Source of the DNA: Isoetes taiwanensis
Lineage: Eukaryota; Streptophyta; Lycopodiopsida; Isoetales; Isoetaceae
Direction: 5' to 3'
Assembly (NCBI GenBank): GCA_021234155.1
Contig: JAJEKV010000013.1
Location: 17,833,781 to 17,897,780, forward strand
DNA: 64,000 nt
Within the stretch, counting starts at the first letter, position 1. Each line of letters starts with the position of its first letter. Under the pieces are notes generated by a model. It saw nothing but the letters and a program-made list of their open reading frames with translations, was not told the DNA's origin and made no database searches. Shown in pieces: positions 10,717 through 48,989 of the stretch. The translations under genes were made by a program, and so were the position numbers.

Positions 10717-11068
10717 TGTTAACCACCTAGTGGTTAACATTGTGCATGCACATGTTAGGTGCATGCACATGTTAGGTGTCAGTGGTGGCAGACTGACACT
10801 TGGCATGATTAGGTTAACATAAGTGTAGGGATTAGATTTAGTTAGATGTACGGCTCAGATTTGCGGTCTACACTATATTAGACTGGAGCCTCTTCAGATG
10901 TACTCAGGTTTTATCTCAAATTTGGAGAGCCTCACTTGGCCACGTTTCCTTCATTCTTTGTATATATTTCTTTGTCTTGTTCTTGTTTTGTGATCATGGG
11001 CATGGCAGCTTTGTAGCATCCGGCAGTCATGGACTGCTGCTGCAAGGTGTATGCCAAGAATCCAAACA
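10717..11068. mobile_element. Solo LTR, copy A
   Basis: A 352-bp unit beginning TGTTAACCAC and ending CCAAACA, flanked by the perfect 5-bp direct repeat TATCA (10712-10716 and 11069-11073). It has TG...CA ends and a TATA-like TATATATTT inside, with no internal region or second LTR, so it is a solo LTR left by recombination. Its start is palindromic (TGTTAACCAC, spacer CTA, GTGGTTAACA), and a 17-bp GTGCATGCACATGTTAG is repeated twice at 10742-10776. It differs from copy B (32854-33205) at about 11 positions. Confidence 0.85.
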
Positions 11069-11073
11069 TATCA

Positions 11074-30500: not shown

Positions 30501-31563
30501 CTGATCTGAATTATGACAGCTCTGATGAAGAGGATACTCACAAAAATTCAGCAAAGAAATCAGATAAGCGGGTGGAAAGTGCAGAACCTAATAACAAGAA
30601 AAATGATAATGTAGAAGTTACAGTACAAGACAACAAAGTTGTGGAGAAGAGAAGAAGAAAAACTGAAGTAGAAAAGCTTAAAGATGATCTAGATATTGAA
30701 ACTGAATTTTTTGGAAGAGGAGAAGAAGGAAAAAGCAAAAGGCTCAGAAATGAAAATGAATTCGATAATATCATGGCAATATTAGAACCAAATGTACCAG
30801 CCAATTATGAGAAAGCTATAAATGTTATAGACTCAATGGAATGGAAAAAAGCTATGAAAGAAGAGATGAATGCTTTTGACAGAACATGTACTTATGAACT
30901 GGTCCAGAGACCTCAAGGGAAGAATATTGTGGAAAATAAATGGATTTATAAAATTAAATCCGACTCTGATGGCAAAGGGCAAAAGTATAAGGCTAGATTG
31001 GTAGCCAAAGGCTTCTCACAAAAAAAAGGGTTGGATTATGATGAGATTTTCTCGCCAATAGTTAAGCTATCAAGTATATGCATGCTGCTTGCTTTTGCTA
31101 ATGCTAGAAATCTGGAAATACATCATATGGATGTAAGTACTGCATTTTTGAATGCAAAATTAGATGAAGAAATTTTCATGAAACCACCAAAAGGATTTGA
31201 AACAGAAAATGATATGGTATGGAAGTTGAACAGAGCAGTGTATGGCTTGAAACAAGCCCCTAGACAGTGATACATTTGTATGGATGAATATCTTAGAGAA
31301 AAGGGTTTTTCAAAATTACAAACTGATGGGAACATTTATGTGCTAAAACAAGGAGATGAATTTTGCATTATTGCCTTATATGTAGATGACTGCATTATGA
31401 TTGCTAATACTATGACTTGTCTAAACAAATGCAAAACAGTGCTCAAGGACAGATTTAAAATGACAAATTTAGGGGAACTTCACAAATTTTTGGGGATTGA
31501 AGTACATAGAGATCGAGTTAATATGAAGCTGACCCTTACTCAGACAACAAACATACAAAGTAT

Positions 31564-32564
31564 CCCATCGATCCCAGACATCGGATCGCCATTCTAGAAT
31601 GGGACGAGCATGCATGTTTTGCATGCATGCGAGGTGGCGCATGCGTTACGGTTGGGGAGTTGGCCTATTTTTAGGGCGCGTTTACGCGCCGACTTCTCAT
31701 CTGGCTTCCTCTTCTCTCTCGGCAATACCTTATTCTCTTTGAATTGTTTCAAAGGCGAGGGAGGGGCTTCTTCACGCTTTTGGTTGGCCAATTGGCGTTT
31801 CTTTCATCTTTGTCCTTTCCGCCTTTAGCCTTCATCGCAATGACCTTAGGTCCCTCGATCCTAGTTTGTTAAGGAAGTCCTTTGTACCGCGGGTTTGTTG
31901 GTTTCATGCGAGTCCCATTCTAGAATCCCATCGATCCGACACATCGGATCGCCATTCTAGAATGGGACGAGCATGCATGTTTGCATGCATCGCGGGCGCG
32001 TTATGCCCGTTCTGGTTGGGAGTTCGCTATTTTTAGCGTTTACGCCGCCGACTTCTCATCGGCGCTTCCTCTTCTCTCTCCAGCCATTACCTTATTCTCT
32101 TTGAACCCACCCTCCCCCCTTCTTTGTTATTGTATTTTTTATCGCGTGGCACGCCATCAGAATCAACCCCTCCACTCACGGGAGGTTTGTTTTGTCTTGT
32201 TGTTTTGTTGGTGATGTGCAGTACGGGTTAGCGGCGGCATCTGTTTCGACTTTTCCATTCGTGGGTTTTGGGAGGCGATTTTTATGCCCACGTTTGTCCA
32301 AGCCCCCGTCGAAGGCTTATCACTAGGGTTTTTCCTCGAAAACCCGAAAGGGCGAGGATTTTTAATCCGGTGATAAGCTTTCGTGGTACACTAGCCGAGT
32401 CTCTATTAGCATTGTATTTTGTTGGGGTCCAAATGATATAATTGGATTTTCCCTTTATTTTTTATGGGTAGTTCGCATGTGTGCGGCTACCCACTATCCA
32501 CCATTGTAGAAAATCTGCTGAGATGAATGAGAAGCAAGGGCGGTTTGTTGGTTTCATGCGAGTC
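31564..32564. mobile_element. Hairpin-rich non-autonomous insertion with 13-bp target duplication
   Basis: A 1001-bp insertion flanked by the direct repeat ACATACAAAGTAT (31551-31563 and 32565-32577). It consists of two related units, 31564-31914 (351 bp) and 31927-32564 (638 bp), with a 12-bp joint CCATTCTAGAAT. The units share their first 180 bp and last 25 bp (ending TTTGTTGGTTTCATGCGAGTC in part) but differ in the middle. Short perfect hairpins abound: CGATCCGA-CACA-TCGGATCG, the palindrome CCATTCTAGAATGG, GGCGCG-TTTA-CGCGCC, GCCGA-7 nt-TCGGC, GGGTAG...CTACCC, and GCTTATCAC...GTGATAAGC (32307-32371). It is more G+C rich than its surroundings. No protein is encoded. Confidence 0.75.
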
Positions 32565-32853
32565 ACATACAAAGTATGCTAAAAGGTTTGGTATGGAATA
32601 TTGCGCAGTGGATACACCATTAGTCCCTGGACATAAGATTTCCGAGGAGATGTGCCCAAAAACAATAGAAGAATTTGAGGATATGGAAAGCACTCCTTTA
32701 AGAGAATTAATAGGTTGTCTTCTCTATGTGTCCAATTGTACACGACCTAACATTGCATTCTCAGTAAGTCTGTAAGCAGATATTCCAACAACCCAGGGAA
32801 GATGCATTGGATGGCAGCAAAGAGAGTATTGAGGTTTCTTAAGGGCACTCAAG

Positions 32854-33205
32854 TGTTAACCACCTAGTGGTTAACATTGTGCATGCACATGTTAGGTGCA
32901 TGCACATGTTAGGTGTCAGTGGTGGCAGACTGACACTTGGCATGATTAGGTTAACATAAGTGTAGGGATTAGATTTAGTTAGACGTATGGCTCAGATTTG
33001 CGGTCTACACTATATTAGACCGGAGCCTCTTCAGATGTACTCAGGTTTATCTCATATTTGGAGAGCCTCATTTGGCCACGTTCCCCTTCATTCTTTGTAT
33101 ATATTTCCTTGTCTTGTTCTTGTTTTGTGATCATGAGCATGGCAGCTTTGTAGCATCCGGCAGTCATGGACTGCTGCTGCAGGGTGTATGCCAAGAATCC
33201 AAACA
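32854..33205. mobile_element. Solo LTR, copy B
   Basis: A 352-bp copy of the same LTR as at 10717-11068, with TG...CA ends and the perfect 5-bp direct repeat TCAAG (32849-32853 and 33206-33210). It sits inside the younger Copia between its connection region and RNase H. It carries the palindromic start, the duplicated 17-mer and the TATATATTT box. It must be younger than its host Copia. Confidence 0.87.
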
Positions 33206-33724
33206 TCAAGAACAAGGAATCTGCTACTCTAATGACAACATGACACTTACAGGATATTGTGATGCAGACTGGGTATCTGATCTAGACTGTAGGAAATCAA
33301 CATCTGGATTTTCACTTTTACTTCGTGGAGGATCAGTTGCATGGAAATCCAAGAAGCAATCAAGCATTGCCATGTCTACAGCTGAGGCAGAATATACTGC
33401 CACTACCCTTGTGGCCAAAGAAATCATATGGGCCAGAAGAGTATTAAATGAGCTTGGAATTATGCAAAAGCATCCAACTACATTACTATGTGACAGTCAA
33501 AGCTGCATAGCCATTACTAGAAATCCAGTCCTTCATCAAAGGACCAAATATATTGAACTCAGTATGCATTTCATTAGAGAGATGGTTGCACAAAAGAACA
33601 TTGATGTCAAATATGTAAGCACACAAGAACAGGCAGCTGACATCCTGACAAAGGCATTACCACAAATTAAGTTTAACAAGTTCAAGGCAATACTTGGTGT
33701 GCAGCAGCAGGTGAAGGTATAGGT

Positions 33725-37919: not shown

Positions 37920-37920
37920 G

Positions 37921-40900
37921 AAGGAAGGAAGGAAGGAAGGAAGGAAGTTTATTTTAACGTCCACGGAGGCCAGAGGCCTATGAGACGGTACATGCAGAGA
38001 ACAGGCAAAAAGCCAAAACCCCAACACCAAAACAAACAATGTAATCAGACAAGAGAACCCTACCAGGGATGAAAAACCCCCACTTGGGAGGAAAACCCTA
38101 ACAAGAGGGCTCTCAAATACCATGCCCCTCAAGAGCAAGTCGAAGCCGAAATCTGCGGGGATGTAAGCTCCCGGTCAAGGCTACCATAGGTGATGCGAGT
38201 AATCGATGTAGCGGTGTGTCGAGCATCTAAGATCGATTGTGCCACCGCGCCGGACATGGGCATATGCCGGGCACCGCCTGGAGGGCATGGTGCTCATCCT
38301 CTATCACGTGCATCTCACAACACCGACATATCCTCTCCTCCCACGAAGGGGATCCCGTGCCCGCCATTCACCCCCAACTGTTTCACCCCCGAGGTAATGG
38401 GAACCCGTCCCTATGGCGCAATAGCTCTCCGCTTCTTCCACGAGATGTGTGCTTTCAAGCACCGATGGGGTCCATGCTCAAGGCCGGGATTAACTGAAAG
38501 CGTGATAGTGCTCTCGTCTTGGGCTTTGCAAGAGTAGAGGCATCCCCAGGTGGTGGTAGCATAGCCCGTGATCCAATTGCCCATTGCATCGGGAATGCGC
38601 GGTCTGCCACCATCCGTTGGTAATCCATAGACCACCTCCTAAACCATCCCTTACATGCTGGTTTCGCCGCCATACCCTCTTGGTGGGGGCCGGCGTTAAC
38701 AACACGGCTCGTGGGGGCAAGCGATGCTCATCCATCCCATCCACCTTATGGAAGCAAGTAAGATGCCTGCAAGATAGCGAATGCGGTAAAGGCCGTAACC
38801 CCGCCTCATACAACAAAATCTCGATGCGCATTTGTCCTTCACTCCCAAGCTATATGTCAAGAAAGCTTTACGCACCCTTTCCAACCTATCCCACGTGTTT
38901 TGCTAATCGGGCGGGCCCCAAACCTCCACCCCATATAGCAAAGACTGCTCGACTAAAGCTCCTAAAGCGGTGTGCTCTCCTCGCCCAAATACGGAGATCT
39001 ATCCCAAGAACACGCCGCTTTTAATCGTGATATAAAGCCTTCCAAACCAGACCGGCTCTCCTCTCCACACACTCATCCCACAAAGATGTTAGTAGTGAAA
39101 TCAATTCCCGTGATACTTGAAGCTCGCGACCATCTCCACTTCCCCGCCCCTCGTAATATAACTCCGGGATAGGGTGTTGCGAGGACAGGATCGCGGAGAA
39201 GCTTAGTTTTGTGCAAGTTCACTGTCATTCCCGCTGCCCCCACGTAACCCATCGAGGGCATCCAAATGCCGCTGCATACCGCTGGCCGCGGTGGGCTAGC
39301 AAAGCTACATCATCCGCGATATAGCAACGGGGCTCACGAGGTCGCCAGATAATTGCACCCCGCTCCCCATGGTGCCGCATCCACGCCTCCAAGCTATCAA
39401 TGTACAACCCAAAAGCGTTGGAGACAACGGGCAGCCCCGCTTAACTCCCATAGTGCTAGCTACCCCACGATCTTCTTCATAAGGCAAAGGCAAAGCATGA
39501 ATCCCATCATAAAGCCGGTGCACCCCATCTCGCAACTCCCCGTGGAACTCGCAAGTCTTGCAACCTCTCGCCACAAGATGTCTCGGGACGGATCATATGC
39601 GCCTTTAAAATCTACAAAGCAAAGAATACAAGTCCTCGTCACAAGATTCAGGCTTGCCTCCATCAACACTCTCAAAGTGAAGATATGGTCGGTCGTGGAG
39701 TGAGTCGGGCGAAAGCCCCGCCGGCCAATTGCCTCCCCGCCCCACTTTAGTGAGTTTCTCCACCACCCCCGCCGGGGAGCTTTCAAACGGCAAGCTTACC
39801 ATAATCATCCGGTAATTACGGCCATCCTTATTACCGGCTTTATGCACGTGAACAACCTTACTAACCATCCACTCTGGGGGAGCCCTCGCCGTGAGCCTGG
39901 TTGATGATCACCGGCAGGGCCCCTATCACGATGGGCCACCCCATTTCAAATTTCTACCGCAGCCCTTTGTAAATCCTTTTGCCTTGCCATTCGCCGGATG
40001 CTCGAGACCCGGGCTGACATCCTCCCGCTGTGAGCTGCAAGCACCTCTCCTACCTCGATCAGGGACCCCGCATTAGCTCCGGTGGGTCATATAACTCCCG
40101 CAGCCGGTGCATCCATTGCTCCACACTTACATTACGACCACCGGGCGCTTCGGTATAACACCTTACGCCAAAAGCTTTTGGCTCGCCCACGAAAGCATAT
40201 CAAACAGCGCCCCGGTTTACGCCATGTATCTCCCCTTCTTGGCTTTTAGGAAGAGCTTATAGTCTTGCGAGCCTCGTGGGTCGCGAACTCGTGGATCTAT
40301 GACCAAAGCGCCACTGGCTCTTTAGAGCCTTGCAATCAAACATCAAACCACGGGTTCTCGTGAAAATCGCGCGGTGTCCCTCCTTGGAGGGCCCTTCACC
40401 GCAAAGGAAGCCCCAAAGAAATGCAAGCGCCCTCACCAGCCATGCACACTGCCTTGCGAAGGTGTGTAAAAGCTATCAAACCCCCAGAACTCCCCGCACC
40501 AACACAGATTCATACCGGGCCCTCGCCCCGATAGCGTGGGATGTATGGTAACCCTCCACCCCTTTGCGGTGTCTCCACTATTGAGTGCTCCCAATTCAAT
40601 TGACATAAAGCGGTAGTGATCCGGACAAAGCCTCCTCATCCCCCGTGCTTTGCCAATGGAGAAGTGTGTAACCATATCAAGTGCCGCACCGGGCGAAGGT
40701 AATCCAACACACTAGCTCCCCATCCGCCTATCACTCCCGCAAGTAACACCCCCGAAAGTGTGGCCATCGGCGATACCATTACAAATTACCATGTCAAAAC
40801 CCGGCAGAGCGGACCCGGTACGCCAAATGGTCTAGCCACCATATCCCGAGGGAGTGCCGTGTATGCTTTGAATAGCCGCCTCTGCCAAAGCGGATCGGCA

Positions 40901-42880
40901 TTAGCGCCACCTTGGAAGGTCACCGACCGCGAATCTAGGCCGACGAGCATTGAAATCTCCTAGCAAAAACACTTTGCCCCCGCGCCTATAGCGGTCTATG
41001 TCATCATACGAGTTCCCTATCACAAGATTCGGACATCGTAGGTTCCGTGATCATGTACCTGGTAGAACTTAGAGCCCGTGATGGGGAATGTAGCGACTAG
41101 CAAGAAACAATGGGACATGACTAGGCTCTAATACCATTACCCACATGTAGCGCTTAAATGCATCGGACTTCTGAAGTGTGATCTTGCATGCTAAGGCGCC
41201 CCTAAAGTAGCAAGCCACTCCCACCGCACGTGCGCGTCGCCATGGGCTTCATTAGCAAGTGAGAAATGCCGATATCCTCGAATGTCCGGAAATCGATGCC
41301 CTTCATACTCCCATGTCTCCCCGGTAGAAGACGATGTCCATGTCTCGCCGCGATCCCATTCAAGCCATCGCCCTTCGCCACGGGAAGCCTCTACAATTCC
41401 GTGAAACAATGCGAAGACACTTTCCCCTATGCCGATCAAGGGCCGTGGACCCATCCCGAGTGCCCGAGGGACGCAGCTGCGTGGTTGGAATAACTCGGGC
41501 AGCCTGGACGATGGGACCCCGATGGATGTCTTTGCAGGTTGTGGAAGGCCTCAATCCGCCCTCTCCCCTCCCCGGCCTCGGCGTTCTGATGTTCCCTGGG
41601 CCTGGCCGCCCTGCGACGCTGTTGCGTGGGAATGCGGGCCCGGGAACTGTTTGACGAGGAGGCACATATACCTTCATCTTGCCATTAACCAAACCAGCGG
41701 TCCCTCCAAATTTTGTCGAATCTCTCTTATCTTGACCAACTCTTGGCTTCTTTCCCGTTGTTGCGATGGCGTGGAGATCCAGGATCGGGTATATGGGCGC
41801 CTTTCAAGCGGCGAGCGGTGCAACAACAAAGATTTTGCCTCCCAATCCAAGGCTGCAAACTTAACTAGCCGAGGTCTCATGCTCGGTCCTCAGGCCACGA
41901 TTGGACTCTTGATAACCAAATCTTGTAAGCTTACCCACGGCAAATCCTGCCTTGCTCCTCCCGGCAATCCCCGCACACAATAAGGTTGAGGCGGCGTGCA
42001 CGGATGTCTTGCTCCTCACGGTACCCTTTGATTCCACGAGCCACCTCGGCCTGCGGTATAGGGTGCTGGTGCGATGACGTGGTGCACTCCGGGACTCGTT
42101 GCACCTCCATTAGGAGGTCCTGCATCTCTTGGTCGTAAGTGGGCCATATGGTTCTCTATATGTAAGCATCTTCCCGACATCTCTGCCAATGCGCCTTTGC
42201 TTCATCAAGGAATTGGAGCCTGCCCCACACCGCTTCCACATCCTTTTCCTTAGCATCTATCCTACCAGCCATGCTTGTGACTTGTACAATCTGCCAAAAA
42301 GAACCCTTCATGTCGGTCCATGCTTGCGCCATGTCTTCCATCCATCATTTGGTGGACCTTATCCAAGCGGTGCCCCATCTCCTCGTTGACTATTTTGCGT
42401 TGTTGCTTGTATCTCCCTCTTATCCGGTCATTAGCCTTTTGGGCTCCCCGCAATCATAATCCCCGAGGCGAACTTCCACAAGGGAAATTCGGCCCTTACT
42501 TCTGGAGAAGCCGCTTCTTGAGCTGACCCCGGGCAGATGGTCCGTGATGCCTCCAAGCTTGCCGCCTTAGCACGAGGGAACCGGCCTGTTCTCGCACAAC
42601 CACGATTGCCTCACCGTGATACCGCTTTCGATGGGGACGAGGTATCCAAATTGCGGGCTCTTTTCTTCAGCCGCGCATGCATCTTTGTCGGGTCGCCATA
42701 GAGGGCCGGACCGGCGGGTGGATTCCGGCTACTAAAACAAAGGAAACACCATACAAATCATAATCACCGGAAAAGCTCATTCGATAAGCTTTCCAAGAGC
42801 CCATGAACACCGAATCGACACCGTAATCCCCGAGTTATGAGCAAAAGAGCGGGGCTGAAACCCTAAGCCAAAGATGGCGC
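37921..42880 (-). mobile_element. LINE 1: EN-RT retrotransposon with (AAGG)n tail
   Basis: Minus strand, 5' at right. ORF1: a start near 42684 (MHARLKKRARNLD), a charged region (42341-42156), and an RNA-binding-like piece (RARRLNLIVCGDCREEQG, about 42030). ORF2: an AP-type endonuclease opening with LRIVSRNCRGF (about 41412). RT pieces follow: GFRPTHSTTDHIFTLRVLME and FVDFKGAYDP (39720-39600), GVKRGCPLSP (about 39440), and the catalytic CYIADDVALLA (about 39330). A YGVEVWGPP and VRKAFLTYSLGVK segment follows (38930-38820). 3' end: hairpin AGGCC-AGA-GGCCT (37967-37979), GTGGACGTTAAAATAAAC and the tail. It is about 5 kb and looks full length. It is unusually G+C and CpG rich, and the frames are much broken. 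Confidence 0.8.
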
Positions 42881-42884
42881 CGAG

Positions 42885-43107
42885 GAAGAGGATCTTTCGA
42901 TGCCTAACAGGTTCCATTTGGGAGCAAAATTCAAGCCTTCCACTAGATTTTCTCGCCATTATTCCTATTTCGTAAAGTCTGATTTTATGAGATTGAAGGA
43001 AAAATCTCATAAGATGAGACTTACGGAATAGTGGCAAAAAAAAACTGGCGGGGGGCTTGAATTTTGTTCCCAAATGGAACTCGTTAGGGCATCGAGAGAT
43101 CATCTTC
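42885..43107. repeat. Foldback (hairpin) element, 105-110 bp arms
   Basis: The left arm 42885-42994 and the right arm 43003-43107 are inverted copies with about 85-90% match, separated by about 8 bp. For example GGTTCCATTTGGGAGCAAAA (42910-42929) pairs with the complement of TTTTGTTCCCAAATGGAAC (43062-43080). The outer ends pair as GAAGAGGATC and GATCATCTTC. This is the structure of a foldback MITE. It lies just upstream of the 5' end of LINE 1. Confidence 0.75.
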
Positions 43108-43245
43108 TCGAAGCTATGCTATATAATTTTGTCTTTCAATGTATAGTGCATGTGGCCAATTTGTGAGAGAGGGAGGGGGGGGGAGGGGGGAGGGGAGGGA
43201 GAGAGAGGGGGCAGGGGGAGAGGGAGAGGGAGAGGGAGAGAGAGA
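43106..43245. repeat. Right arm of the inverted repeat with purine tract
   Basis: TCTCGAAGCTATGCTATATA (43106-43125) and GTATAGTGCATGTGGCCAAT (43141-43160) followed by (GA/GGGA)n to 43245. It is the inverted counterpart of 37797-37919. LINE 2's tail starts directly after it. Confidence 0.7.
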
Positions 43246-44610
43246 GATGAAATGAAATGAAATCTATTATTCCATCTTCGAGACCACCAGGTCTATGAGA
43301 CGTTTACAAGTTACATTCAAAATTATAAAACAAATCATCCAGTGCGTCTTCTGAGAGTAACACACTGGGCTCCTCTATCTCAATCTCTCGCACCTTCTGA
43401 TTTTTCAAACAAGCATCTCTATATTTAAGAATGTCAACAATATATCCCCAATGGATACCCCTGGTGCGAAAAGAACTCCTCAAGGGAGGTAGCACTGATC
43501 CCATGTATGACTCTTAAGTCCGAATAAGCACGGCAACAAAGTAAGATATGAGCCTCATCCTCCACCACACCGTCACTACACAAGTTATGATTGTCTAAGA
43601 TCATGGCGATGTTCCGCCCATCTCCCTACCTCCACACCAAGATGGTGCGAGCTTAACCGCATCCTTGCAATTGCTTGCCTATGCTTCATAGATATGGGTT
43701 CACTAAGATATCATTTGCCTTCAATGTAGAATTCATCCGAAGTCCGATAGTACTCTTTCTTCACAATTTGGCGTATCTATGTCTTAGTGAGAACACTCTT
43801 CCAAACCCATCCCTCAATATCTTCCCCGATTCATCTCGCAATTCAGTGAATATCCATCCCCATTTCACCACCATCTACTAATATCCGTGATACCAACCTT
43901 TATTCACTACTCTCACGCTGCAGCAATTCTTTTGCAAGCTATTCTGGGCATATCATATAAAACCTTATGCAGATAACGTAAGGTTTTGCAAAGAGCTTCA
44001 TCTTCAAGGAGTATCATCCCAAGACTCTCCTAACATCATATCATATGGCGTTTGCATTTTAGTGCCCAGTTCCGTTTGAAAAAATTTCTTTTGTATTTTT
44101 CCACCTTTTTCCACCCATCATTAGCTTAGGCCCGGCCTCCGTGCTTCATAACCATACAAGATAACCGTTTGTACCAATACTTTAAAGAGCATCGTTTCAT
44201 TTCAAAGTTCCAAATGTCAAAGATTCACACACCTTCTCGCAGATTGCATATAGTGTCTTTAAGCCCAAGACTCACTCTATGTCCGGACCGCCGATTCCAA
44301 TTCGGACTTTTGTCTACAAATAAACCCAGATACTTATAGCTTTCAACGACCTCAACTTGCTTACCCTTGTAAAGTAGCCGCGACATGATCTGTTTTATTC
44401 GGCTCCAAAAACAACAATTTTAGTCTTTTCCAGATTCACCGCATACTTTTAGCATCACAAAAAACCGCAAGCACATCCAAATGTCTTTGAATCCCCTATA
44501 TGCTCCGAGATAGCAACACAATATCATCAGCATATAGCAAGAGCATAAGTACATACCCATTCAAGGATGTACCATCCCTCCATGTGCTCTTATCCACCCC
44601 TCCGCCTGAT

Positions 44611-44889
44611 CTATGAACAATCCAAACAAGGTAGGGGACAAAGGACACCCCTGATTTTAACTCCCATATTACTCTCTACTACATCATCACACATTCCAAC
44701 AAAAGGGAAAGAGAGTTGCACGAGTACTTTGTTGTAAAGAACACTTACCGCATGCCTAAGCCCCATCGGGATGCCCAAATCTACCATCCTATGCCACAGA
44801 TTTTGCCTATTCACCATGTCAAAGGCCTTGCTGAAATCCACAAATATAGCATACAAAGGTTTCCTTTTTCCCACCACTGAATCCATCAT
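44611..44889 (-). CDS. LINE 2 reverse transcriptase, part
   Basis: A 92-residue frame with KRKPLYAIFVDFSKAFDMVN (the RT motif carrying the first catalytic Asp), LWHRMVDLGIPMGLRHAVSV and the VLYNK segment. It stops shortly after GVKIRGVLCPLPCLD, where an active enzyme would have G-V-(R/K)-Q-G-x-x-L-S-P. The Y/FADD box region lies just downstream on the minus strand (about 44540-44500) in another frame. It copies element RNA into DNA at the target if intact; here it is decayed. Confidence 0.7.
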   Translation of the reverse strand: MMDSVVGKRKPLYAIFVDFSKAFDMVNRQNLWHRMVDLGIPMGLRHAVSVLYNKVLVQLSFPFVGMCDDVVESNMGVKIRGVLCPLPCLDCS

Positions 44890-45980
44890 AGCATCTAAGG
44901 GTGACCAAATGGCCAGCCAGACTTTTTAGGTCTAAAGCCCGCTTGGCCTATTGCTCTAGCATTGTGATCCTCCGCCAGCTTGCTTATCTTGCCCTCAAGT
45001 ATAGAGGCATCTGAGCTTTTTTGCATAAAGGTCGCCAACCATAATGGTACCTGGAAGTTACCCGGATCGATACATCCCCCGACTTGTGCAATGGCACAAC
45101 CCTATTAACCCGCCAGACCTAGGAAACCCATCTCTCAAAGCCATGTCGACCCAGCCTATTTAAGAATCAGCTTCTCCAGCCCATTTAAGCATTTTCGCCT
45201 TAAGGCCACAAGCATATGCCGCTTTGCCATTAGCAAGTCTCTTGAGCCCCACCTGAACATCCTCCAGAGTAAAGGTAAGCATATCATCCATCTCACATGT
45301 CTCTTCGCCATCTTATCCTCAACTCCATGGACATGGTATAAATTATGACATGCTCCATTAGTGCCTCCGCTTTCAACACATTACCCCCATGCTTCAAGGG
45401 TTTAAGCCTATTCCAAAATTTCTTTTGGATCAACTAGCGTTCTTCCACCATTCGGGCCTATGTTTATTTATGTAAATATGCCTTCTTCTTATTTTTGACC
45501 AGCTTGGTATACACTCTCCTTTTTCAGACTTTAGTCGCCCTTGTGCCGCTTCTAAATTTTTGCCTCCATTAATTTTACATTCCATGTCAAACCATCCATT
45601 ACATGGCAGCCCCCCTCCGTTTGCCCGTTGGGATACAAAACATTCATCCGCTGATTCAAGCAAAACCCTAGACAACGCCTCACCATATCCCCCTATCGAT
45701 CCGGGTCATGCAAAGATGCCATTTTCTGCCGCATATCTTGCTATATTCATGAGCTTTATCATACTTGAGAGACATCCATTTACCTTTATATGTATCTTCT
45801 TGCTGCCTATGATGCCACTGTACATGAAGTTCAATGAGCAAAGGTACATGATCCGAGCAAAGGTTCATTCTCATCTCCAATGTGTAAGCTAATAACATGT
45901 TCTCGCAAAAAGTAGGTTTGGCAATAACATAATCCACCACGCTAGCATTTTTACAAGCGCGCTTTACCGAGCCTGGGTAC

Positions 45981-46475
45981 CTATCCGTGCCATTGAATCA
46001 CCATCTCAAAACCGCTACACATATGTAAGACATGACGCCCCTGTGGTGTCAGCCATTTCATATTGTCTTCTGATGTTCTGCTCCATCCAATTGTCCTCAC
46101 CTCAGTATCATCCAGCATTTCCAACCATTCTGCTTCTCCATCTAGGCCCATCAAAGCTGCTTGATGGTTTCCCGTACGCCCATTAAAGTCTCCTAACAAT
46201 AGCACTTCCCCGCCAAAACCCAAAGCTAGTATATCCCCGCCTAAGTGAAAGAATGGGTCATCCTTATCCGTGATCTCCTTTGTTATACGGTGTGATTCCC
46301 TTGGGGGAAAATAACAACCAGCTACATATATCTTGTTGCCCCTACCTGGCAATTCAATCCAAATGTATTGTGCAGTTGCCTTATGTGTCAAAACACACAC
46401 TGCGTGCGCAATTTCATTGCGAGTATAGCATGCAATACCACCTGTACCTTTAAGATTCCAGCCCTTCTTATTCAT
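45981..46475 (-). CDS. LINE 2 AP-type endonuclease, best of three copies
   Basis: A 164-residue frame starting NKKGWNLKGTGGIACYTRNE. It then has WIELPGRGNKIYVAGCYFPP (beta strand and loop of the exonuclease/endonuclease/phosphatase fold) and the diagnostic VLLLGDFNGRTG (about residues 108-119; the D and N are catalytic). This nuclease nicks target DNA to prime reverse transcription. The first half (to about residue 85) is repeated at 47092 and 47730; the GDFN part occurs only here, next to the rest of ORF2. Confidence 0.7.
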   Translation of the reverse strand: MNKKGWNLKGTGGIACYTRNEIAHAVCVLTHKATAQYIWIELPGRGNKIYVAGCYFPPRESHRITKEITDKDDPFFHLGGDILALGFGGEVLLLGDFNGRTGNHQAALMGLDGEAEWLEMLDDTEVRTIGWSRTSEDNMKWLTPQGRHVLHMCSGFEMVIQWHG

Positions 46476-48089
46476 ACTGAATGTAATAGCGTAAAACCAA
46501 AAATATCTGGAAGAGCCTTTTCCTCATGCTCACATGTTTCCAAAAAGAAAACTATGTCTACATTTGCTAGCAAGTCATCCATAGCACAAATCTTACTACT
46601 TTTTAACGTATTTACATTCCAGCAAACTAACTTGGCGGTCGCTACTTCCTATGCATCCTCCACAATCACTTTTCCGCCTCTCCAGTTGTCCAGCCGCTCT
46701 TGCTTCCTTCATCCTCTGAAGATCTTCTTTTCTCTACTGAAATTGCGTCTTAGTTTAGTCGTCATTGACCCATATATATTTGCCCTTAAGCAATGTTCGC
46801 TTCTGCATAACCCGAGCCTTCGCTTCCCTGCCAAATCCAAAGCTAGTATATCCTGCTCTAAGTGAAAGAATGGGTCATCCTTATCCAGATCTCCTTTGTT
46901 ATACACAGGTGATTCTCTTGGGGGGAAATAACAACCAGCTACATATATCTTGTTGCCCCTACCTGGCAATTCAATCCAAATGTATTGTGCAGTTGCCTTA
47001 TGTGTCAAAACACACACTGCGTGCGCAATTTCATTGCGAGTATAGCATGCAATACCACCTGTACCTTTAAGATTCCAGCCCTTCTTATTCATACTGAATG
47101 TAATAGCGTAAAACCAAAAATATCTGGAAGAGCCTTTTCCTCATGGAAGAGCCTTTTCCTCATGCTCACATGTTTCCAAAAAGAAAACTATGTCTACATT
47201 TGCTAGCAAGTCATCCATAGCACAAATCTTACTACTTTTTAACGTATTTACATTCCAGCAAACTAACTTGGCGGTCGCTACTTCCTATGCATCCTCCACA
47301 ATCACTTTTCCGCCTCTCCAGTTGTCCAACTGCTCTTGCTTCCTTCATCCTCTGAAGATCTTCTCTTCTCTACTGAAATTGGGTCTTAGTTTAGTCGTCA
47401 TTGACCCATATATATTTGCCCTTAAGCAATGTTCGCTTCTGCATAACCCGAGCCTTCGCTTCCCTGCCAAACCCAAAGCTAGTATATCCTGCTCTAAGTG
47501 AAAGAATGGGTCATCCTTATCCAGATCTCCTTTGTTATACACAGGTGATTCCCTTGGGGGAAATAACAACCAGCTACATATATCTTGTTGCCCCTACCTG
47601 GCAATTCAATCCAAATGTATTGTGCGGTTGCCTTATGTGTCAAAAAACACAAGGCTGCGCGCAATTTCATTCGAAAGTATAGCATGCAATACCACCCTGC
47701 ACCTTTAAGATTCCAGCCCTTCTTATTCATACTGAATGTAATAGCGTAAAACCAAAAATATCTGGAAGAGCCTTTTCCTCATGCTCACATGTTTCCAAAA
47801 AGAGAACTATGTCTACATTTGCTAGCAAGTCATCCATAGCACAAATCTTACTACTTTTTAACGTATTTACATTCCAGCAAACTAACTTGGCGGTCGCTAC
47901 TTCCTATGCATCCTCCACAATCACTTTTCCGCCTCTCCAGCTTGTCCAATGCGCTCTTGCTTCCTTCATCCCTCTGAAGATCTTCTCTTCTCTACTGAAA
48001 TTGGGTCTTAGTTTAGTCGCGTCATTGACCCATATATATTTGTTCTTAAGCAATGTTCGCTCAGATAACCCGAGCCTTCGCTTCCTTGG
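46221..48089. repeat. Tandem triplication of the ORF1/ORF2 junction in LINE 2
   Basis: Three consecutive units, at about 46221-46837 (617 bp), 46838-47473 (636 bp) and 47474-48089 (616 bp). Each begins CAAAGCTAGTATATCC and includes the endonuclease start (a Met codon at 46475, 47092 and 47730 on the minus strand) and TTAAGCAATGTTCGCT. Unit 2 carries a short extra duplication (GGAAGAGCCTTTTCCTCAT twice, about 47127-47163). Units 2 and 3 are about 97% alike by eye. Confidence 0.8.
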
Positions 48090-48573
48090 ATGCGCACTTC
48101 ACCAACACATTCCGTGTTCCTTCCCCCTTCCTTCCAACCCGGTAAGCCTCCAAAATATCCACCTGCACCTGCATATTACCTGCAAGAAATGTTTGAACAG
48201 CCATGCTTGTGTCCTCATTCTCCTTTTCTGGTAGGCCAAAAATTCTGAAATTATTAGCCTTCGACTCCCTTTCATGCATATCAGCCAAGTGCTCCATTTT
48301 CTCATTCAAAGCATCAATTGCTCCTTGAAAACCATCATTTGAGCCCCTATTCGAAGTCTCAGCTTGATCTATGACCTGCTTTGTCTCTGATACGCTTGCT
48401 AGCTGCTGCTTTAGCTCTACATTTTCACTCTTTAAAGAACACAGAGACTCATTCATACCTTGCAAAAGCTTAAGCATTTGTGCCTGATGGGCTGCCGCCT
48501 CCTTCCTTGCTTGCTCTTGCTCCATGGATTCTAGTAGCTTCATCATCACCGTAAGCAATTGACCCATTAGCAT
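48061..48573 (-). CDS. LINE 2 ORF1 protein
   Basis: A 170-residue frame with the layout of an L1-type ORF1 nucleic-acid chaperone. It has a long coiled coil (residues about 10-60, KLLESMEQEQARKEAAAHQA and SLKSENVELKQQLASVSET), a second coil (about 82-105) and then NFRIFGLPEKENED, the start of an RRM-like fold, and VDILEAYRVGRKGEGTRNVL. It ends at KEAKARVI where the triplicated region begins. The ATG at 48573 is the first in frame and lies 28 bp from the (AG)n tract. Confidence 0.65.
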   Translation of the reverse strand: MLMGQLLTVMMKLLESMEQEQARKEAAAHQAQMLKLLQGMNESLCSLKSENVELKQQLASVSETKQVIDQAETSNRGSNDGFQGAIDALNEKMEHLADMHERESKANNFRIFGLPEKENEDTSMAVQTFLAGNMQVQVDILEAYRVGRKGEGTRNVLVKCASKEAKARVI

Positions 48574-48597
48574 CTCTCCTCCAAAGAATCCGTAAGG

Positions 48598-48600
<3 letters not shown>

Positions 48601-48694
<94 letters not shown>
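48601..48694. repeat. (AG)47 microsatellite
   Basis: An uninterrupted AG run of 94 bp next to the 5' end of LINE 2. Confidence 0.97.
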
Positions 48695-48695
<1 letters not shown>

Positions 48696-48989
48696 CTTGA
48701 ATCCGGTCTGGGACATTTGTGTCATCCGGCTATGTCATCCACAGCATCAGTTATACAAAAAATTTGAATTGCAATTTTAGGTCAAATATCGACACAACCA
48801 ATGACACTAATGGACCTCTTCTCTTGTAGTGCTTGAAGCATTGTTCAAAATTCAGGATATGAGATATTTCGAGTTCTTTGAGCCCGCTTCTTGGCAGCAA
48901 GTTTTAGGGTTCCCATGTCTTTGTTTAAGCCAGATTCTATAAGAAATGAGTTGAGGTAATTATGTCCTTCCTATCAAAACATCGATGAA

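Follow-up and report, generated by a model that had tools for sequence, protein, structure and literature searches.

A hairpin-rich noncoding insertion in a Copia element of Isoetes taiwanensis: a probable non-autonomous split-direct-repeat retroelement of the tyrosine-recombinase type

Results

Structure of the insertion

The window, that is, the whole stretch of 64,000 nucleotides analysed in this work, harbors a Copia pol frame that is interrupted by an insert of 1001 bp (31564-32564). The 13-bp sequence ACATACAAAGTAT flanks the insert on both sides (31551-31563 and 32565-32577, no mismatches), and pol continues across the outer sequence (TQTTNIQS-MLKRFGMEY, by eye), in agreement with the exact edges and the flanking duplication described in an earlier note on this DNA. 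The insert is composed of two units (31564-31914 and 31927-32564) separated by the joint CCATTCTAGAAT (31915-31926). Their heads of about 180 bp are related, as the note had it, but not identical (85.6% alike, gaps counted, with the gaps mainly in GC-rich hairpins); the identical tail measures 23 bp instead of 25; and the middles, correctly described as unrelated, show no relation by blastn. The joint does repeat a palindrome internal to the insert; it is not a linker, because the arrays of the family run head-m1-tail-head (see below), which makes it the end of the first tail.

The insert contains eight non-overlapping perfect stems of at least 6 bp, versus 1.26 ± 1.05 (maximum 5) in 300 dinucleotide shuffles, so the count of at least seven hairpins stands, including the CGATCCGA/TCGGATCG stem, unbroken in unit 2. 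At 1.06, the CpG o/e of the insert exceeds that of the host Copia pol (0.16) and that of the window (0.51); when 1-kb segments were slid across the window, the maximum (1.07) fell on the insert and the next value was 0.96.

The only ATG-started frame of at least 50 residues lying wholly within the insert has 72 amino acids, with no tyrosine recombinase (YR), reverse transcriptase or RNase H of the insert's own. The tRNA search of the insert returned nothing, no poly(A), A-rich or simple-repeat 3' end could be read in it, and no hammerhead was found in region 31300-32800 (Rfam, E up to 10), all of which the note had anticipated. A genome search with the hammerhead model RF00163 gave 0 matches, but its controls were silent as well, so it is uninformative. 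Rfam retrieved no credible family from the region, mir-3145 alone appearing at 25 and 24 bits (gathering 98), and a further Rfam search none; a miRNA was discarded, the mir-3145 model having matched the junction inverted repeat alone, with 25 of 98 bits and on both strands. Likewise, a bacterial, phage or plasmid origin was discarded (0 matches). Neither the insert nor its family has the TG...CA ends with 4-6 bp duplications that mark LTR retroelements, in keeping with the earlier exclusion of an LTR integrase, and there is neither the 3' end of a LINE or SINE (A-rich or simple-repeat) nor a Pol III-type head (tRNA, 5S or 7SL). The insert is noncoding and is classed solely as a non-autonomous derivative.

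In the following, H is the head, m1 and m2 are the middles, T is the 35-bp tail ending CCATTCTAGAAT, R is H from about position 140 and E is the end of m2 (...AAGCAAGTCTAAGTC or AAGCCTATCTAT). With these names, the window copy can be divided as follows:

31551-31563, plus strand: left copy of the 13-bp target duplication, ending TAT beside the left end (repeat match, target logo).
31564-31743, plus strand: A1 (head H), with the U part at about 31564-31705 and the R part at about 31706-31743.
About 31706, plus strand: opening of the R part of A1 with TTCCTCTTCTC, the candidate RNA start.
31569-31588, unstranded: crossover-adjacent hairpin, shorter here than in unit 2 and also found in the YR-linked locus L109.
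31744-31891, plus strand: m1, a short internal region, putative remnant of a coding region; its end bears GGAAGTCCTTTG, which locus L110 also has upstream of the T-like end that follows its YR frame.
31892-31926, plus strand: B1, the first tail (T), in complete form with CCATTCTAGAAT at its end (22-mer with 1081 exact occurrences in the genome).
31905-31975, unstranded: B1|A2 junction inverted repeat around AAT|CCC, with 22-nt arms 91% complementary; putative recombinase site.
31924-31926, plus strand: AAT, putative 3-bp circular junction (target logo, permuted copies, DIRS1-like precedent).
31927-32106, plus strand: A2 (head H), with the R part from about 32066.
32107-32541, plus strand: m2, hairpin-rich 3' region (similar block downstream of the YR in L109), ending at 32541 in a short form of the putative RNA 3' end, GAGAAGCAAG.
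32542-32564, plus strand: B2 without its last 12 bp (CCATTCTAGAAT).
32565-32577, plus strand: right copy of the target duplication, occupying the place of the 12 bp missing from B2.

Other repeats were observed in the window. A 353-bp TG...CA repeat occurs at 32854-33206 and 10717-11069 (97% alike), with 5-bp flanking repeats by eye (TCAAG; TATCA); both copies are probably solo LTRs of a short LTR element, one of them sitting in the same Copia as the insert, and genome-wide the same repeat occurs in five pairs of places 2.4-2.7 kb apart. LINE-like frames with an (AAGG)n end lie at about 37920-48730 on the minus strand and at a further locus (L026), in which 76 bp match window 37925-38000 without a difference; at 46-48 kb a frame that resembles an endonuclease by eye is present repeatedly, with no Pfam match.

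Copy number and repeat design of the family

The search of the genome with the head and the tail, as the note had advised, was carried out on the Isoetes taiwanensis (quillwort) assembly of 1,658,258,908 bp in 1110 contigs. There are 1962 exact occurrences of the 31-nt head motif, of which a full copy has two (971 forward and 991 reverse; none for the reversed control), 1081 of the 22-nt tail (control 0) and 1030 of the R-m1 23-mer, one per full copy (control 0). The family thus comprises at least about a thousand copies.

The loci read are not a random sample: the first 40 places are the best 40 of 3940 candidates, biased to close relatives, and L048-L077 and L088-L107 are the first listed places of the exact tail and head searches (20 of the 58 head clusters were used). 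L002-L008 were excluded, being the same places as L009-L015. Eighty arrays were first kept, all of which by construction start with H no later than position 6; those starting otherwise (L045-L047, L050 and others), those at locus edges and those with repeated left flanks had been left out. Removal of eight inverted-repeat-only matches and one fragment (L033) gave 71 usable arrays, and removal of L051, L094, L095 and L104, whose left end is off the expected motif, gave 67 loci. L067 and L106 count as complete in the sorting of arrays and as incomplete once the right end is required to read CTAGAAT.

Among the 71 usable arrays, 60 start H-m1-T-H, most of them going on with m2 and T; three read H-m2-E-R-m1-T and eight are single units or parts. 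According to these data, the whole insert can be read as a split direct repeat, A1(H)-m1-B1(T)-A2(H)-m2-B2(T).

The folding of the units proposed in the note gave z values of -3.5 and -6.3 for the two window units on the plus strand, while the comparison of strands in the family was indecisive. RNAalifold on 146 heads predicted two hairpins on either strand, none of them in the unalignable GC-rich part; the plus-strand fold was lower in 135 of the 146, and against shuffles z was -2.18 (plus) and -1.63 (minus) for 40 of the 146 heads. For m2 and m1 (12 copies each) the plus/minus values were -2.7/-2.2 and +1.0/-0.8, respectively. Fold energies are not decisive as a strand test.

Family copies are about 6% apart, yet their CpG o/e is 0.83-1.08 (37 copies). 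Singletons comprise 153 transitions versus 178 transversions in these 37 copies, and 20 versus 9 in 12 control LTR copies. This spectrum is suggestive of diversity arising from replication, with an assembly that is Nanopore-based and singletons that need not be private among 37 copies; any one of error-prone replication, young age and errors in the assembly could account for the transversion excess and the high CpG. Moreover, L061, L062, L066 and L077 are tail-to-tail inverted copies, with H outside and the join near the end of m2.

Ends, target site and duplications

Position 1 of H is the start in 37 of the best 40 of 3940 places. The 67 loci had been chosen for their intact left ends. All of them (67/67) have T directly before CCC; position -2 is A in 88% and otherwise T, position -3 is A in 69%, and the target consensus is AAT. 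The right end is complete (...CTAGAAT) in 44 of the 67, and none of these 44 has a duplication of at least 6 bp (0.60 expected from shuffled flanks). The incomplete right ends (23/67) include 10 with duplications of 6-13 bp (0.71 expected; maximum 4 in 2000 shuffles). Absence of a duplication, therefore, holds for 44/44 complete copies, and fails in the window copy (13 bp) and in 10/23 incomplete ones. Another Copia pol is interrupted by L057, a complete copy whose flanks match the window's Copia protein up to residue 935 on the left and from 938 on the right (tblastn; two frames on the right), and have in common at most AT/AAT by eye. The pair L039/L050 provided no usable empty site.

The tally of duplication lengths that the note called for goes against its reading of the 13 bp as a sign of target-primed, LINE-like integration: the 13-bp duplication is exceptional and is not the integration signature of the family. 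Among the incomplete copies, nine retain the GAGTC of B2; six of these have a target repeat that ends 12, 12, 12, 13, 13 and 13 nt past GAGTC, the position that the 12-nt terminus of the element would take up, and the remaining three have no duplication. The window copy is the extreme case, with all 12 nt of the B2 end replaced, in register with five other copies. The register, for which no null was computed, is not what is expected of random truncation plus a staggered cut; it suggests that target sequence may overwrite the B end in the course of recombination or afterwards. The window duplication would then be a target-derived patch in place of the last 12 bp of B2. Duplications ending elsewhere (L058, the same place as L037, 13 bp; L088, 7 bp; L076 and L030, 6 bp) may have arisen by another route.

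Permuted copies and similarity between A1 and A2

Three copies (L048, L051, which has an altered left end and lies outside the 67 loci, and L091) read H-m2-E-R-m1-T, an order that would most simply result from a ring with its closure at E|R and its opening at T|H. Two others (L045, L046) extend from R to E, lack AAT on their left side and look like copies of a linear RNA, so some copies seem to have come in by another route. The start of L047 lies within R, and L069 joins both forms, its R beginning about 10 nt earlier. The simplest reading of the whole set would be an RNA running from R to E, two points placed from genomic ends only, whose cDNA is able to close into a ring opened at T|H.

Within copies, A1 and A2 are 0.926 alike in their U parts, against 0.890 between copies (60 pairs; 0 of 5000 permutations as high). 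The likeness is higher within than between in 47/60 copies, and a copy's own A2 ranks first in 14/60, where about one is expected. The R parts are 0.890 alike within and 0.861 between (0/5000; own partner first in 6/60); since the R parts too are more alike within copies, the likeness extends beyond the U part, to which the model would confine it. In some copies the U parts are identical, so that a number of insertions appear recent. With a U likeness of 0.84, below its between-copy mean (0.848), the window copy belongs to the more diverged ones.

Tyrosine-recombinase loci and the linked junction

With PF00589, 58 matches were retrieved from the genome (148 of 246 candidates scored), 53 of them without an inner stop. 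In L111, a 321-residue frame that is still open where the stretch ends matches PF00589 at 4e-9; a search by sequence among solved structures retrieved none. It is preceded by a 277-residue frame with an RNase H match (RVT_3, E 0.0072) below the cut-off. A methyltransferase-like domain is present in DIRS and PAT elements and absent in Ngaro; the 277-residue frame, which covers only part of the element, gave no such Pfam match with an E limit of 1.

Locus L109 continues from the YR match at C1042 with a T-like end and then AGAAT|CCCATCGATCCGAG..., with H 1-46 at 87%; 0.7 kb further lies an m2b-like block (85% over 53 bp) with hairpins and the CTATCTAT end seen in L091. The family has GAGTCCCATTCTAGAAT/ATTCTAGAATGGGACGAG as the arms of the junction inverted repeat, and L109 has GAGTCCTTTCCCAGAAT/ATTCTGGGAAAGGACGAG; 15 of 17 positions are complementary in both, hence the four changes per arm are paired. 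In L110, the YR match at C1030:8354892 is followed by a T-like end that is identical to L109 over 29 bp, with no H afterwards. L109 and L110 are 3' parts only, with no A1 upstream of the YR frame in the sequence read. The ends that the family has in common with YR-linked loci are, therefore, similar and not identical, as the 87% of H 1-46 in L109 indicates.

The L109-type junction occurs at 369 places with two mismatches or fewer, 64 of them exact (reversed control 0). At four of the 58 YR places (C919:15633089, C1031:10867664, C1042:8889569 and C1061:8043426) an exact junction lies 89-98 bp downstream on the same strand; the other 60 of the 64 exact places have no YR among the matches listed beside them. 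The pairing figures cover the exact places and those listed among the inexact ones, and since the latter are 36 of 305, the other 54 YR places may have a linked junction as well.

A Penelope partner was also considered and rejected: the sole locus read (L108, 1.7 kb) of 121 GIY-YIG matches has no notable match to H or T and no reverse transcriptase frame by eye. Many of the 121 matches are open frames of 115-154 residues; they represent an amplified family of GIY-YIG genes or elements, whose likeness to Penelope would be hypothetical.

Discussion

Interpretation and proposed cycle

The family has the repeat order, the A1/A2 likeness and, at YR loci, the related ends of split-direct-repeat tyrosine-recombinase retroelements, a known group into which an insert described as fitting no known family can be placed. 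We consider it very probable that the insert is a copy of a high-copy, non-autonomous element of this kind, which integrates at AAT-like sites, normally without target duplication. The retroelement reading of the note is thereby retained, the family being mobile, probably RNA-derived and present in about a thousand copies or more. The element appears to borrow the tyrosine recombinase of larger retroelements in the same genome, and the co-varying junction beside YR frames is consistent with such a dependence.

In principle, the following cycle can be depicted. A plus-strand RNA would start at R inside A1 (at TTCCTCTTC), pass through m1-B1-A2-m2 and stop at E, just before B2 (at GCAAGTCTAAG). 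The reverse transcriptase of a larger relative would copy this RNA; B2 and the U part of A1, which the RNA lacks, would be supplied by the internal B1|A2 block. The cDNA would circularise with a B|A junction (...AGAAT|CCC...), and the recombinase of the relative would join AAT|CCC to an AAT-like genomic site, normally leaving no duplication of the target.

The rival that survives best, although it is improbable, is target-primed reverse transcription of a minus-strand RNA, 5'-truncated and with its structured 3' end at H, which would make the insert a SINE-like or LINE-derived element. The constant left end and variable right end, the excess of 6-13 bp duplications in incomplete copies and the inverted copies with H outermost (L062, L077) would all suit such an element. 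The lack of both poly(A) and a tRNA head, the 44 complete copies without duplication, the resemblance between the A1 and A2 of one copy and the YR frames on the T|H strand, beside the same kind of ends, argue against it, as does the register of the duplications near B2 (12 or 13 nt from GAGTC in 6/6, with no null computed); the minus-strand scheme was dropped after the YR matches, the ends of L109 and the pairing of junction and YR.

Helitrons have a CTAG end with a 3' hairpin shortly upstream. A rolling-circle (HUH, Helitron-like) element would share with the family an A|T target, tandem arrays, termini of the form TC...CTAG(AA) and the combination of conserved ends and variable middles. The left flank A(T)|(T)CCC, the complete copies without duplication and the head-to-tail arrays speak for it; against this, AA follows CTAG, no hairpin is seen by eye just upstream, 23/67 right ends are incomplete and the co-varying junction adjoins tyrosine-recombinase matches, so that we regard it as very unlikely. 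Hairpin-rich organelle DNA used as break filler, to which the higher GC and a CpG o/e near 1 in an AT-rich host might point, has hardly any chance of being right, given 1962 exact head motifs genome-wide and a fixed target at the left end.

A broader reading of the split-direct-repeat element is tentative and, taken as a whole, somewhat doubtful: land plants would have a living lineage of YR retroelements, with a protein-less parasite of about a thousand copies or more that would depart at times from a precise 3-bp crossover on integration and whose B end can be rewritten from the target over 12-13 bp, the apparent duplications being patches in register and not staggered-cut repeats.

Comparison with known systems

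Plant dimeric SINEs consist of two joined units, as the insert does; the quillwort element differs from them in having neither a tRNA head nor an A-rich tail, and its joint is the B1|A2 boundary, recurrent in the family and not a chance fusion. Retrozymes and Penelope-like elements are noncoding or tandem, RNA-derived elements with dimeric copies, features that they share with the family; they differ in target and ends, and the window region has no hammerhead.

The closest agreement is with the DIRS order. According to the passages cited, in Ngaro A1 lies at the 5' end and B1, A2 and B2 at the 3' end, downstream of the YR (PMC9210276, PMC8547959), and PAT-type and VIPER elements have the same split-direct-repeat design (PMC4157794, PMC6681497), with A1 and A2 100% alike in some VIPER copies (PMC6681497). 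The order A1-internal region-B1-A2-B2 of Ngaro, PAT, TOC and VIPER is thus, as far as these passages describe it, also that of the quillwort element. DIRS1-like elements are described as having a 3-bp circular junction and ends that are mostly ATT, and the published DIRS model leaves no target duplication (PMC3266345, in the part concerned); the AAT junction and the complete copies without duplication match this closely. Unlike Ngaro, PAT, TOC and VIPER, the quillwort element is noncoding, has a land-plant host, bears an m2 of 435 bp between A2 and B2 and shows duplications of 6-13 bp in some copies.

The nearest described analogue found is SIRE of Trypanosoma cruzi, a non-autonomous relative of VIPER and likewise a short noncoding derivative of a YR retroelement built of split direct repeats; in the account consulted, SIRE corresponds to the A2-B2 region, whereas the quillwort element retains A1-m1-B1-A2-m2-B2, and the mobility of SIRE is left open there (PMC6681497). 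No earlier report of the quillwort element was found in the open-licence literature searched.

The statements on plants differ among the passages cited. A 2022 review excludes DIRS from land plants because they are known only in green algae (PMC9033089), and a 2011 survey found green plants devoid of DIRS1-like elements, yet with uncertain traces in Plantae (PMC3266345); elsewhere, Dirs1-like elements are said to occur in Viridiplantae (PMC4157794), PAT-like DIRS are reported in Chlamydomonas (PMC8226300) and DIRS are listed among plant retroelements generally in a 2024 review (PMC11630846). The ALOG domain, in turn, is described as derived from the YR of a DIRS1-type element (PMC3537659, in the part cited), and the family may bear on the origin of ALOG regulators; the Pfam scan of one YR frame (L111) gave no ALOG match.

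Because the permuted copies resemble footprints of a ring, the family offers material for testing the circular-intermediate model. The unexpected part is the host, a land plant: open YR frames, together with about a thousand or more non-autonomous copies in a lycophyte, would extend the DIRS order to a land plant.
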